Shown: positions 6,043 through 11,343 of the stretch, in pieces | Position numbering within the stretch: position 1 is the first letter of the stretch | How the letters are laid out: every line of letters begins with the position of its first letter | Notes under the pieces: model-generated | Databases searched by the model: none | Told to the model about the DNA's origin: nothing | The model's input: only the letters and a program-made list of their open reading frames with translations | Translations under genes and position numbers: made by a program | Virus record (IMG/VR): IMGVR_UViG_3300042868_002993 | Location: 1 to 40,839 of that record | Length of the DNA: 40,839 bases | Direction: 5' to 3' (one strand) | DNA from: a virus

Positions 6043-6054
6043 AGACAGGAGAAG
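6043..6054 (+). promoter_or_regulatory. Start-associated motif and ribosome-binding site before the SprT gene
   Basis: GAGACAGGAGA lies just before the ATG at 6060. It is a variant of the TTAAGACAGGAG repeat, with only a degenerate ACTTAACG in front, and it fixes the SprT start. It gives an 11-base match to the complement of the 10665-10700 hairpin segment. Confidence 0.75.
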
Positions 6055-6059
6055 AAGAA

Positions 6060-6695
6060 ATGACACAAGCAACACAAGCAAAGACAGGCAAGGCATCAAA
6101 GGCGGAGGCACTCTCAACAATTACCAAAGCCCTTGAATCTGCTCATGAAATCATCAAAGCGGAGACAGGCGCCCCTCGTGCCACTCTTTTAGTTACCCGT
6201 GACCTAAAGGGCAGAAAAGGACATTTCACCCCTTTTACACCATGGAACAATGGCGGAGAATCCTTTAATGAAATTGCTTTCAATCTTGAGCATTTCACAA
6301 CACCAGAAGAATTACTTTCTACCTTGTTGCATGAGGTGGCTCACTCCTTGAATCATGCCAATGGAATTGAAGATTGCTCATCTAACCAATACCACAATGC
6401 CAAATTCAAAACACAAGCCGAGGCGTTAGGTCTTAAGACCGAGCAAACCAAAAAGGGATATAGCGCAACAACTTTAACCGAGTTAGGCGCTAAGCGATGG
6501 AAGAAGGCGCTCACCATCCTTGCCAATGCCTTTGACCTTGTTGCACTAGGTGGCGAGCAGGCAAAGCCTAAAGGCAGAAACACCAACTTAATCAAGGCAC
6601 AATGCGATTGTGAGAACACCATCCGCCTAAGCCGAACAGTCTTAGAAATCGGTGTGACATGCAACGCATGCGATGAGATTTACAAGGAGGCTTAA
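6060..6695 (+). CDS. SprT-like zinc metallopeptidase
   Basis: A 211-residue protein with the zincin motif HEVAH at residues 91-95 followed by a downstream helix, and a C-terminal zinc ribbon (CDC...CNAC, last 30 residues). That is the SprT/Spartan-like architecture. Spartan-type proteases digest DNA-bound proteins. Phage versions are common but mostly unstudied, so the substrate is unknown. The start at 6060 is set by the GACAGGAG ribosome-binding site. The coding DNA also holds TCTTAAGACC at about 6432, read as LKTE. It is the first gene of the rightward leaf, under two CRP-like sites. Confidence 0.85.
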   Translation: MTQATQAKTGKASKAEALSTITKALESAHEIIKAETGAPRATLLVTRDLKGRKGHFTPFTPWNNGGESFNEIAFNLEHFTTPEELLSTLLHEVAHSLNHANGIEDCSSNQYHNAKFKTQAEALGLKTEQTKKGYSATTLTELGAKRWKKALTILANAFDLVALGGEQAKPKGRNTNLIKAQCDCENTIRLSRTVLEIGVTCNACDEIYKEA

Positions 6696-6864: not shown

Positions 6865-6899
6865 CGGGAAAAGTTCCCGTTATGTATTAAGACAGGAGA
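6865..6899 (+). promoter_or_regulatory. Leader hairpin and start-associated ribosome-binding site
   Basis: CGGGAA-AAG-TTCCCG (6865-6879) is followed by TATGTATTAAGACAGGAGA. The ATG is at 6905. The stretch TATGTATTAAGAC recurs at 7675-7687 and just after the terminator at 10704-10716. Confidence 0.7.
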
Positions 6900-6904
6900 A
6901 AAAA

Positions 6905-7216
6905 ATGTCACAAGATACACCCGCAGTTCTTCAATTCGTTGAAGATTATTTACTCGTTACAGATAACGAGGCGGAGAGTTACCAAGCAATTCAAGAAATG
7001 CCCGAGTTACTAGCGGGTAACATGTCGGGATTATCTGACCGCTTACGGGAAGAATTTGAGACTTACATCTCCCAAGTTGTGGAAAGAGAACGAGAGAACG
7101 GACACGAGGCGGGAGCCTTGCTTATCTCTCAGTTACTAATCGGCTGGGGTTCTGCAACCTTTGACCGAATCGCCCGCCATTACATCGGACTTAAGACAGA
7201 ATCAGAGGTGGCATAA
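6905..7216 (+). CDS. Small acidic protein of unknown function
   Basis: A 103-residue acidic, mainly helical protein (VEDYLLVTDNEAESYQAIQE) with no recognised domain. It has a strong start-associated ribosome-binding site. Its C-terminus, GLKTESEVA, is encoded by a copy of the TTAAGACAG repeat placed shortly before the next ATG. It is the first gene of the block behind CRP-like site 3. Confidence 0.75.
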   Translation: MSQDTPAVLQFVEDYLLVTDNEAESYQAIQEMPELLAGNMSGLSDRLREEFETYISQVVERERENGHEAGALLISQLLIGWGSATFDRIARHYIGLKTESEVA

Positions 7217-7640: not shown

Positions 7641-7692
7641 TAGGGCACGACATAAGGCAGGAGATACTTGCCCTATGTATTAAGACAGGAGA
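7641..7692 (+). promoter_or_regulatory. Leader hairpin and start-associated ribosome-binding site
   Basis: TAGGGC and GCCCTA (7641-7646 and 7670-7675) close a 23-base loop. TATGTATTAAGACAGGAGA follows, and the ATG is at 7698. The arrangement (CRP-like site, hairpin, TATGTATTAAGACAGGAG, ATG) repeats that before 6905. Confidence 0.65.
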
Positions 7693-7697
7693 ACAAA

Positions 7698-7910
7698 ATG
7701 GCAACATGGATTAACGCAAAGGGTGACACCATCACCACAAACGGAACTATTTACACGATTACAAAGAACGGACACGCCTCTCATTGTGATGTTGCAAGAT
7801 GGAGCATGACAGCCGAGAAATGGATTAGAAACGACATAGCCTCAGGGTATTACAGCGATTTTACCGAGGTGCTAGAACAATCATTACTTAAGACAGAAGA
7901 TGCATCATGA
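7698..7910 (+). CDS. Small protein with LKTEDAS tail
   Basis: A 70-residue protein (MATWINAKGDTITTNGTIYT...) predicted to be mostly beta-strand, then a helix. I start it at 7698, next to the strong ribosome-binding site, rather than 30 bases further upstream. It ends LLKTEDAS, encoded by CTTAAGACAGAAGATGCATC. The same 24 bases, with one change, end the gene at 8960, and both are followed by a Cys-rich microprotein. Function unknown. Confidence 0.7.
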   Translation: MATWINAKGDTITTNGTIYTITKNGHASHCDVARWSMTAEKWIRNDIASGYYSDFTEVLEQSLLKTEDAS

Positions 7911-8424: not shown

Positions 8425-8434
8425 AGACAGGAGA
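8425..8434 (+). promoter_or_regulatory. Start-associated ribosome-binding site before 8441
   Basis: AGACAGGAGA followed by AAACAAATG; the TTA in front is replaced by CT. It sets the start of the zinc-ribbon gene. Confidence 0.75.
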
Positions 8435-8440
8435 AAACAA

Positions 8441-8638
8441 ATGAAAGTAAAAACAAACAGAGTCTTTGCTTACATAGCAAACTCAGATGGCACACGAGGA
8501 AGTGGCGAAATGATTTGCCCCAAGTGTGCACTAGATGTACCAACACCTCTTGAAGGGTGTCAGTCAAATGATTACTCTTTCGGATACGAAGTGCTGGGTT
8601 GTAACTGGTGTGGCGAAACCCTCAATACACCATTTTAA
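8441..8638 (+). CDS. Small zinc-ribbon protein
   Basis: A 65-residue protein with CPKC (about 26-29) and CNWC (about 55-58), a treble-clef or zinc-ribbon pattern, and a fifth Cys at ECGQ-like LEGCQ. The start at 8441 is set by AGACAGGAGAAAAC. Such ribbons may bind nucleic acid or protein; the target is unknown. It heads the block after CRP-like site 5. Confidence 0.7.
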   Translation: MKVKTNRVFAYIANSDGTRGSGEMICPKCALDVPTPLEGCQSNDYSFGYEVLGCNWCGETLNTPF

Positions 8639-8646
8639 ATTAACTA

Positions 8647-8660
8647 CTTAAGACAGGAGA
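8647..8660 (+). promoter_or_regulatory. Start-associated ribosome-binding site before 8667
   Basis: CTTAAGACAGGAGA followed by AAACAAATG: the full consensus form of the repeat, placed in the 28-base gap between two genes. Confidence 0.8.
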
Positions 8661-8666
8661 AAACAA

Positions 8667-8960
8667 ATGGCACTACCCGAACACACACTTGAAGCACTAA
8701 CCAACGGGCACAACAACATGGAGTTCAACGAAGATGGACACATGACTAGCGCACATGGGTCAGGTGTGGATTTATATGTCCTCATTTCACTCATTGGCTG
8801 GATTAAGTTAGAACTTAAGACAGGTATGAAGATGACCCGTCATGGGAGCACACTTAAGAAGGCTAACGAAATGCTAGGCACTAACTACAAGCGTAAGCAA
8901 CAAGCGCTTGACCACCTTGAATCATTGCTATCAGTTCTTAAGACAGAAGATGCATCGTGA
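8667..8960 (+). CDS. Small helical protein carrying two copies of the repeat
   Basis: A 97-residue protein with two predicted helices and a basic C-terminal half (KKANEMLGTNYKRKQQALDHLESLL). The DNA repeat occurs twice inside it, read as LELKTG in the middle and VLKTEDAS at the end. The latter is the near-identical twin of the end of the gene at 7910. Its stop overlaps the GTG start of the next gene. Function unknown. Confidence 0.7.
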   Translation: MALPEHTLEALTNGHNNMEFNEDGHMTSAHGSGVDLYVLISLIGWIKLELKTGMKMTRHGSTLKKANEMLGTNYKRKQQALDHLESLLSVLKTEDAS

Positions 8961-9085: not shown

Positions 9086-9234
9086 TGAATAGCATTGAAC
9101 GCAAAGTAATACAACAACGCATCAAGCGTGCAAGAGAACAGCGCAACGCCACTATCAACAACGAGGACTTTGATTACTGGCATGCATTGTATGAACATTA
9201 CACATCATTACTTAAGACAGGAGAAAACAAATGA
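9085..9234 (+). CDS. 49-residue basic helical microprotein
   Basis: MNSIERKVIQQRIKRAREQR...: a long basic amphipathic helix, then a Tyr/His-rich stretch, ending SLLKTGENK. That tail is encoded by the full repeat, which at the same time is the ribosome-binding site of the next gene. Overlaps neighbours at both ends (TAATG and ATGA). Possible nucleic-acid binding; function unknown. Confidence 0.55.
   Translation: MNSIERKVIQQRIKRAREQRNATINNEDFDYWHALYEHYTSLLKTGENK
9211..9224 (+). promoter_or_regulatory. Start-associated ribosome-binding site before 9231
   Basis: CTTAAGACAGGAGA followed by AAACAAATG. Identical in the 23 bases to the start of the gene to the copy before 8667, yet here it also encodes LKTGENK of the upstream gene. 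Confidence 0.8.
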
Positions 9235-9368
9235 GTGAGCCACGCTACTTAGAGGGTGACGATGTAGCACTTGGTATAAATCAAGGATGCGATAACTGTG
9301 ATGAGATAGACTGCGGGTGCGGAGAGCCTGACCCCGACAGATTGTACGATGAGATGGGAGAAATGTAA
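9231..9368 (+). CDS. 45-residue acidic Cys-rich microprotein
   Basis: Acidic, with CDNCDEIDCGCG in the middle: four Cys in a compact cluster suited to one metal ion. The start is set by GACAGGAG seven bases ahead. It is followed after one base by the next gene. Function unknown. Confidence 0.6.
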   Translation: MSEPRYLEGDDVALGINQGCDNCDEIDCGCGEPDPDRLYDEMGEM

Positions 9369-10261: not shown

Positions 10262-10603
10262 ATGGAGATTAAATTCTTTCGTGTCTTAAGCAAGAAACCA
10301 GCACGCTCAAGGGGTGAGGGTTACACCGCCATTGAGTTACGCTATGACAGTAACCAATTCAAAGGTGCATCATGCTCAGGTATAGAGACAGACTTCTTCT
10401 ACCCAGCACAAGATAGGTTTGAGGCTGGCGAAGCGGAGTTACTCAAGCGTATTTGTGTTGATTGCCCAGTCATGGAAGCCTGCCTTGAGTGGGGCATAGC
10501 GATGGAAAGGTATGGGATATGGGGTGCTACGACACCTAATGAAAGGTTTGGTATACGCAAGAGACTCAACATCATTGCCTCTGACCCTCAACACAACTCA
10601 TGA
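10262..10603 (+). CDS. whiB: WhiB-like iron-sulfur regulator
   Basis: A 113-residue WhiB-family protein with the four cluster-binding Cys at 38, 65, 68 and 74 (CVDCPVMEAC) and the G[I/V]WG turn GIWGATTPNER near 86, followed by a basic tail RFGIRKR. WhiB proteins are found in Actinobacteria and their phages. They bind a 4Fe-4S cluster and usually act with the primary sigma factor; a mycobacteriophage version is known to block host septation and repress host whiB. I start at 10262, immediately after the upstream stop, because residues upstream of this are only the transglycosylase gene in another frame. Confidence 0.92.
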   Translation: MEIKFFRVLSKKPARSRGEGYTAIELRYDSNQFKGASCSGIETDFFYPAQDRFEAGEAELLKRICVDCPVMEACLEWGIAMERYGIWGATTPNERFGIRKRLNIIASDPQHNS

Positions 10604-10609
10604 TATGAT
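10581..10609 (+). promoter_or_regulatory. Promoter-like sequence at the end of whiB
   Basis: CTGACC (10581-10586) and TATGAT (10604-10609) are 17 bases apart and match four and five of six bases of TTGACA/TATAAT. A start near 10616 would fall at the first base of the stem at 10616-10658. It overlaps the last codons of whiB. Confidence 0.4.
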
Positions 10610-10614
10610 TGTTT

Positions 10615-10704
10615 GGCACACCAGCCCTTGCGAAGGGGAAGCGTAGCGGTTGGTGTGCATAGAAAAGCCCATCAGATTCTCTCCTGTCTCTGGTGGGCTT
10701 CTTT
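10615..10704 (+). ncRNA. Candidate phage small RNA complementary to the repeated ribosome-binding site
   Basis: A roughly 90-base segment with no reading frame. The 5' part folds by GCACACCA/TGGTGTGC (10616-10623 and 10651-10658), with CCCTTGCGAAGGG inside. The 3' part is a 12-bp terminator hairpin (10665-10700) with a 12-base loop, TTCTCTCCTGTC. The loop segment TCTCCTGTC is the exact complement of GACAGGAGA, which precedes the starts at 6060, 6905, 7698, 8441, 8667 and 9231. With one more base from the stem the match is ten bases. Pairing would cover the Shine-Dalgarno sequence. The function is inference: the loop could be only an inverted repeat copy. Confidence 0.45.
10665..10703. terminator. 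Bidirectional terminator between converging operons
   Basis: AAGCCCATCAGA and TCTGGTGGGCTT pair over 12 positions with one G-T. A T-rich tail (CTTCTTTAT) follows on the plus strand, and TTTTCT on the minus strand. It separates whiB (rightward) from the dNMP kinase gene (leftward), and reaches the kinase stop codon. Confidence 0.85.
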
Positions 10705-11242
10705 ATGTATTAAGACCTAACTCTTTAGCCAACATAAATACTTCATCACTTAAGTCATCAAGAGTTCCATCGTTATAGATAACATGACTAAACATATAGT
10801 TATCCATAGCATGTTCAGATGTGTGATGATTAACTGCGGTGTTATTCCTGCGGTTGATACGCCACACAGTACCGCCAAGTTTCTTTATTGCATCAGCCTC
10901 ATTAGGAAAACGCACATCACTAATAACAACACGGTCACCCTGTCTTAAGTCAGATAGTGACATCTTAATCCACACATCATTGCCAATCATCTTGCGACCA
11001 AAATCAGTACCTAATACCTGCAATAGACGGCGAACCTCAGGGTTTTTCTTTGCTATATCCCAACCATAGTCATCTACTAAATCTGCAACACGAGTGATGC
11101 TATCTAATCTAGGGTTGATAATTTGTAATGCATGTCGCATCGGGTCAGCAAATGCTCGGCGTTCGTAATCGTAATTAAGACACAACAAGTTAGCGGTTGC
11201 ATCTTTACCTGACTGTGCGTACCCACTCAAACCTATAATCAT
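10703..11242 (-). CDS. Deoxynucleoside monophosphate kinase
   Basis: A 179-residue P-loop kinase: GYAQSGKDAT near residues 7-16 is the Walker A of the phage dNMP kinase family, and RVVISDVRFPNEAD (about 105) holds the conserved acidic loop. It would phosphorylate dNMPs to supply dNTP precursors. I start at the ATG at 11242, with GGAG seven bases upstream, rather than TTG at 11248. It is the last gene of the leftward replication operon and overlaps the upstream small gene by four bases. Confidence 0.87.
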   Translation of the reverse strand: MIIGLSGYAQSGKDATANLLCLNYDYERRAFADPMRHALQIINPRLDSITRVADLVDDYGWDIAKKNPEVRRLLQVLGTDFGRKMIGNDVWIKMSLSDLRQGDRVVISDVRFPNEADAIKKLGGTVWRINRRNNTAVNHHTSEHAMDNYMFSHVIYNDGTLDDLSDEVFMLAKELGLNT

Positions 11243-11343
11243 TGGCAACTCCAGCAGTAGTAAGGTGTTCTTACTGATGATTCATCTACATGAAATTCTT
11301 TGGCGCAATGAAAACATTTAACATCTATTTTATTCTCACTCAT
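11239..11343 (-). CDS. 34-residue zinc-ribbon microprotein
   Basis: MSENKIDVKCFHCAKEFHVD... YYCWSCQ: two CxxC pairs 18 residues apart form a minimal zinc ribbon. It overlaps the genes on both sides by ATGA, so it fits a coupled chain. Function unknown. Confidence 0.65.
   Translation of the reverse strand: MSENKIDVKCFHCAKEFHVDESSVRTPYYCWSCQ

Follow-up and report, generated by a model that had tools for sequence, protein, structure and literature searches.

Positions 10616 to 10703 of the window (the whole stretch of DNA analysed, 40,839 nt or 40.8 kb, positions 1 to 40,839 of virus record IMGVR_UViG_3300042868_002993) very probably encode a phage small RNA that acts by base pairing, hiding the ribosome-binding sites of a set of early genes. 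Pairing between the loop of this predicted RNA and a motif that precedes the gene starts is strongly supported by comparison of related phages, which also demonstrates, at the level of sequence, the RNA structure, its strand and the coevolution of the loop with its targets. We infer that the RNA is transcribed, that it represses rather than activates, and when it acts. The RNA (10616-10703) would have a promoter and a terminator of its own. The loop of the terminator hairpin would serve as a seed for the extended Shine-Dalgarno motif (A)GACAGGAGA, which at least six genes of the upstream rightward, probably early, operon carry before their starts, and would form 9-11 bp with it. As the pairing covers the ribosome-binding site, translation initiation should be blocked, and for the whole set simultaneously; Shine-Dalgarno pairing normally blocks initiation. 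Pairing would perhaps destabilise the mRNA as well, and the early genes would be turned down as infection proceeds.

The window contains genes for a terminase, a portal protein, a DnaB-like helicase, an exonuclease, a sigma-70 region 4 protein, whiB and a deoxynucleotide monophosphate kinase (DNMK). Small genes occupy the + strand from approximately 6.0 to 10.6 kb, and the flanking genes of known function lie on the minus strand. The small-RNA locus sits between the convergent whiB (+) and DNMK (-) genes, and is composed of the following elements.

10262 to 10603, + strand: whiB-like gene (Pfam Whib, 8e-13), whose 3' end contains the -35 of the small RNA
10581 to 10609, + strand: putative small-RNA promoter, CTGACC-17-TATGAT with an extended -10 TG (TGATATGAT)
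10616 to 10703, + strand: predicted small RNA of 88 nt with two hairpins, with covariation in 33 relatives
10616 to 10658, + strand: hairpin 1 (43 nt), loop GAAGGGGAAG largely conserved, missing from some relatives
10665 to 10700, + strand: hairpin 2, the terminator, with a 12-bp stem and a 12-nt loop; terminator-like on the minus strand too
10677 to 10688, + strand: seed loop TTCTCTCCTGTC within hairpin 2, complementary to the start-site motif
10703 to 11248, - strand: DNMK gene (Pfam DNMK, 3e-22), convergent, used as anchor for locating relatives

A CTGACC-17-TATGAT element, a compact fold and a 12-bp terminator hairpin after whiB had been noted in a sequence-only reading of this DNA, and all three were recovered. 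The RNA fold of positions 10600-10720 (121 nt) had an energy of -48.6 kcal/mol compared to -31.9 for shuffles (z -5.0), and the two hairpins are separated by a spacer of 6 nt. The ends at 10616 and 10703 were inferred from the distance to the -10 and from the terminator. The promoter-like and terminator sequences are conserved, most relatives having a similar -10 (TGATATAGT, TGATACAAT and TGATACAGT among them) at the equivalent position. No Rfam family reached its gathering score for the small RNA, the B11/6C model being unmatched and the remaining matches weak and meaningless, with E values up to 5. Directly past the terminator (10703-10716) lies a conserved sequence, TATGTATTAAGA, that resembles TATGTATTAAGACAGGAGA found before the starts at 6905 and 7698.

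The gene make-up of the window is that reported for cultured Ca. Planktophila phages, in which whiB, sigma-70 and glycosyltransferase genes have been described (PMC10202952), and the phages carrying the small RNA are viruses of freshwater actinobacteria. There were no nucleotide relatives of the locus among the phage DNA records searched, and neither the kinase family nor the hairpin was found in the bacterial genome collection, which consequently provided no host lineage or provirus.

The complement of the loop had been noted before six starts. We found GACAGGAGA in six + strand copies, 5-7 nt before ATGs, with its one complement in the RNA loop; these seven matches in the window compare with 0.16 expected, and none of 100 shuffles attained seven. 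The six copies are located as follows.

6044 to 6052, + strand: target motif of the SprT-like gene (start 6060)
6891 to 6899, + strand: target motif of ORF 6905-7216
7684 to 7692, + strand: target motif of ORF 7698-7910
8426 to 8434, + strand: target motif of ORF 8441-8638
8652 to 8660, + strand: target motif of ORF 8667-8960
9216 to 9224, + strand: target motif of ORF 9231-9368

At five starts the duplex predicted between loop and site was 10 bp long, with an energy of -17.5 to -17.7 kcal/mol; the start at 6060 had a longer one (-21.6 kcal/mol). These lengths agree with the shared match of ten bases, longer at 6060, claimed earlier; the 1% quantile of duplex energy for random 30-mers was -13.0 kcal/mol. 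An RNA-RNA interaction prediction had been suggested as a check, and when the starts of the window were ranked by their duplex with the loop, five of the six targets were placed on top, with 9231 scoring equally when its start was taken directly.

Relatives of the locus were identified in viral contigs using the DNMK anchor, many of them with identical gene order, and structure statistics were taken over 33 distinct RNAs. The consensus of these RNAs has 26 pairs, 18 of which had changed on both sides. For this structure 97.8% of cells were paired and 144 cells had changed on both sides, and the covariation of 0.548 (shuffles gave 0.240, sliding no more than 0.108) was equalled by 0 of 500 shuffles and by no slid control, as is found for a structured RNA kept by selection. 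Stem changes passed through G-U in the + orientation, equivalent to A-C on the minus strand, in 97 cells compared to 9 cells with A-C, which identifies the + strand as the functional RNA. The sequence-only reading had raised a decoy, made from the minus strand (loop GACAGGAGAGAA), as an alternative; the functional copy would then lie on that strand and could soak up a protein or ribosomes like a sponge. The motif itself would indeed be displayed in the loop on that strand, but both the direction of the G-U changes and the position of the -10 element on the + strand disfavour a decoy, which we consider highly improbable.

In group A, as we call the phages sharing one form of the loop, the loop CTCTCCTGTC was invariant in DNMK-anchored copies while the stem was rewritten (CCATCAGA/TCTGGTGG, CCCAGCGA/TCGCTGGG, CCCGCTAGA/TCTGGCGGG and CCTAGCAA/TTGCTAGG, among others). 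This constancy is not a selection effect, because copies were taken by position and not by loop sequence. Hairpin 1 was absent in L030-L032, L037 and L245, where the seed hairpin lies immediately behind the -10, and hairpin 2 is therefore the core of the RNA. In L241-L244 the neighbour of DNMK is another sequence, which closes with a plain GC-rich terminator; the seed-loop hairpin is present elsewhere in the locus in L241 and L242, indicating that the RNA had moved and yet been kept.

The loop was constant within a group and different between groups, and the start-site motif differed in step. The loop/motif pairs were UCUCCUGUC/GACAGGAGA in group A and CCAGUCCUU/AAGGACUGG in group B, with finer sub-variants matched to 10-11 nt. 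Group B (L278-L288 and others) has a homologous RNA at the equivalent site after whiB, which shares hairpin 1 and follows a similar -10; its loop is GGGTTCCAGTCCTT (GGATTCCAGTC in L278 and L280), its starts bear AAAGGACTGG(A), as in AAAGGACTGGAGC-ATG and AAAGGACTGGT-ATG, and GACAGGAGA was absent from the group B loci examined. In L278 and L391 a loop GATTCCAGTC is paired with GACTGGAATC-ATG starts, and in L273 and L274 a loop TGGTTCCAGTC with GACTGGAACC-ATGG starts (for L273 also given as GACTGGAACCA-TGG). The more distant L038-L043 have the loop AATGGTTCCAGTCCC and starts such as AAAGGACTGGAA. Two further loop types occur in L221 and L300, whose contigs end before the early region; if the pairing holds, their starts are expected to bear AAAGGACUAAC and AAAGGACUAGAAA, respectively. 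A pattern hunt for additional loop types returned only an unrelated contig, L441.

We compared the loops in a swap test using deduplicated starts, scoring at least 8 contiguous pairs within 22 nt upstream. Loop A fitted 108 of 705 group A starts and 0 of 273 group B starts (P 5e-17), while loop B fitted 15 of 273 group B starts and 2 of 705 group A starts (P 3e-7); kinship of the contigs makes both P values too small, though the swapped-cell counts of 0 and 2 are independent of it. Shuffling loop A gave a mean of 16 and a maximum of 104 fits compared to 131 observed, a weak control because any C/U-rich shuffle resembles the anti-Shine-Dalgarno sequence, and the swap test was therefore used instead. 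A smaller share of starts carries the motif in group B than in group A. Since the contigs are interrelated, the counts overstate independent events, and the change from loop A to loop B represents one to a few events, plus the sub-variants. Motif starts numbered 152 across 25 loci of group A; of these, 145 were on the strand of the RNA, all of them upstream of it, indicating that the target set is the rightward operon ending at the RNA and not the minus-strand genes. The seed is complementary to several messages and coevolves with them. The sequence-only reading, which proposed a trans-acting RNA for a whole set of ribosome-binding sites, had named relatives with a change in only the motif or only the loop as grounds for refutation. 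In the relatives both had changed together and the swap test was clean, so that the proposal passed this test and is supported.

The same data bear on the possibility that the locus is only a bidirectional terminator between convergent operons, in whose loop an inverted copy of the motif happens to persist or is maintained by gene conversion. The location between convergent genes and a hairpin that is terminator-like on both strands would fit, and the lower A/U stem covaries too. However, a terminator needs neither a fixed loop amid a changing stem nor a -10 just before hairpin 1, and the loop changes jointly with the motif in other phages, making this explanation very unlikely.

The start motif extends beyond what 16S rRNA requires. 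AGAC lies just 5' of 121 of the 255 distinct group A sites with AGGAGA before ATG. Group B has 35 such sites, and AGAC is missing from the contexts listed for them; in that group, CTGG lies directly 3' of 12 of 43 AAAGGA sites. The extra AGAC bases can be paired by the loop plus one stem base, and not by 16S rRNA. A loop that mimics the 3' end of 16S rRNA, instead of pairing with phage messages, might be suspected from the CUCCU of loop A, which is the anti-Shine-Dalgarno core. We regard such mimicry as extremely improbable, given that the loops of group B (GGUUCCAGUC) are little like the 16S tail and match their own extended motifs, and that the GAC part of the motif is without a 16S partner.

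A small RNA pairing with ribosome-binding sites has precedents. In mycobacterial B11/6C, the terminator-hairpin loop lowers the translation of several messages by pairing next to their ribosome-binding sites (PMC12395582). Like the RNA predicted here, B11/6C is an actinobacterial small RNA that uses its own terminator loop as the pairing element (PMC12395582), but it is host-encoded and has a run of C in the loop, whereas the phage RNA has a specific 9-11 nt loop word that is matched to the starts of the phage itself and covaries between phages. The pairing could be real and its outcome other than repression, with mRNAs being protected or activated, or titrating the RNA from host targets, and the evidence for pairing is silent on the sign of the effect. 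This outcome is nevertheless rather unlikely, since the duplex would cover the Shine-Dalgarno sequence, a few nt 5' of the start codon, the usual place for blocking the 30S subunit, with B11 as precedent (PMC12395582). The c4 antisense RNA of P1/P7 is a phage RNA that blocks translation through loops pairing around a ribosome-binding site (PMC12197685). It controls one message (ant), unlike the single loop here that fits at least six starts; the six targets in the window are separate, and none was an antirepressor in Pfam and PHROGs scans.

The Start-Associated Sequences (SAS) of cluster K mycobacteriophages are a repeated AGGAG-containing word, wider than pairing with 16S explains, that stands before many non-structural gene starts including that of an SprT-like gene; whether a protein or an RNA binds it was left open by the authors (PMC3203893). 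A repeated extended word before starts and an SprT-like gene among the targets are shared with the window (PMC3203893). The words are different (13-bp GGGATAGGAGCCC compared to GACAGGAGA here), the motif of the window does not class as an SAS, no partner RNA of SAS is established, and an anti-SAS hairpin loop is found in only some K phages. The one reverse SAS of Anaya (cluster K) sits in a hairpin loop; in several other K phages the anti-SAS loop was lost though the surrounding RNA-like region persists, and in Pixie, ZoeJ and Kratio most anti-SAS matches were plain antisense of SAS sites. We treat the cluster K anti-SAS hairpin as a comparable system only as a lead. The RNA-like intergenic region itself (L235:44720-45067; Anaya, JF704106 59719-60066; other K phages) is conserved and matches 177 records; it contains a -10-like box, TTTAGACT, and a hairpin that varies. 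Anaya and several others, but not Marshawn, Yuna, LeMond or Keshu, have in addition a hairpin loop complementary to SAS, CCTCCTATCC, which may explain the 'single reverse SAS'.

Other phages use the same motif, and in the searchable parts of their sequences the whiB-DNMK RNA was absent; they have instead a hairpin whose stem (9-19 bp) varies widely in sequence and whose loop is close to TTGAGTACTCTCCTGTCCTC, followed approximately 10-20 nt downstream by a start with a GACAGGAG-like site. This second form is non-homologous to the terminator RNA and has the same loop. Such leader hairpins, with a near-fixed loop around CTCCTGTCCTC, were found in L439:31640-31720 (E7), L440 (F5), L120, L121, L137 and L146, and also in L091, L112, L135, L155, L418, L425 and L437, and could act in cis, in trans or both ways. 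Two of these phages, Planktophila phages LanE43AprE7 and AprF5, are cultured freshwater actinophages which, like the window, have whiB and sigma-70 genes (PMC10202952), GACAGGAGA before several starts and a hairpin with a CTCCTGTC loop. In these two phages, unlike in the window, the hairpin stands as a leader before the replication operon and not as a whiB-DNMK terminator RNA. Among the words upstream of E7 and F5 starts GACAGGAG ranks first, and the exonuclease/helicase operon is preceded by an 18-bp hairpin. The exonuclease-like gene of E7 (L439:31712-32489) appears as two overlapping ORFs of 61 and 202 aa in different frames, which may reflect a sequencing error or a frameshift; that of the window is one 279-aa ORF.

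To our knowledge, very few phage RNAs control a whole set of the phage's own genes. A base-pairing RNA on ribosome-binding sites is of a known kind, and the set-wide, coevolving phage version is new to us; the open papers searched, a coverage that leaves most subscription journals outside, contained no comparable phage system and none with loop-target coevolution across a phage family. We tentatively raise the possibility, doubtful as it is at present, of a translational address system in actinophages, in which a phage-specific word over the Shine-Dalgarno sequences of a gene set is read by a single loop that has arisen at least twice in unrelated hairpins (the terminator RNA after whiB and the replication-operon leader). 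The cluster K SAS may belong to a system of the same kind. If true, word and loop would drift jointly, so that related phages use different codes and could escape each other's RNA. What reads the start-associated words of actinophages has been a question since 2011. The predicted small RNA offers a concrete answer to it, one that lends itself to testing in culture, with Planktophila phages E7 and F5 and their host. The host group is among the most abundant of freshwater bacteria. The coevolving variants also supply a natural set of orthogonal pairs of RNA loops and ribosome sites.

Other repeats were present in these genomes. The 8-mer TTAAGACA has 31 copies in the window, counting both strands together and coding sequence included, mainly at 6-11 kb, and CTTAAG has 41 copies compared to 13.5 expected. 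The sequence TTAAGACAG often constitutes the 5' half of the start motif. In group B (L288, L286 and L278) there are instead 16-37 copies per locus of the 8-bp palindrome GTTTAAAC.
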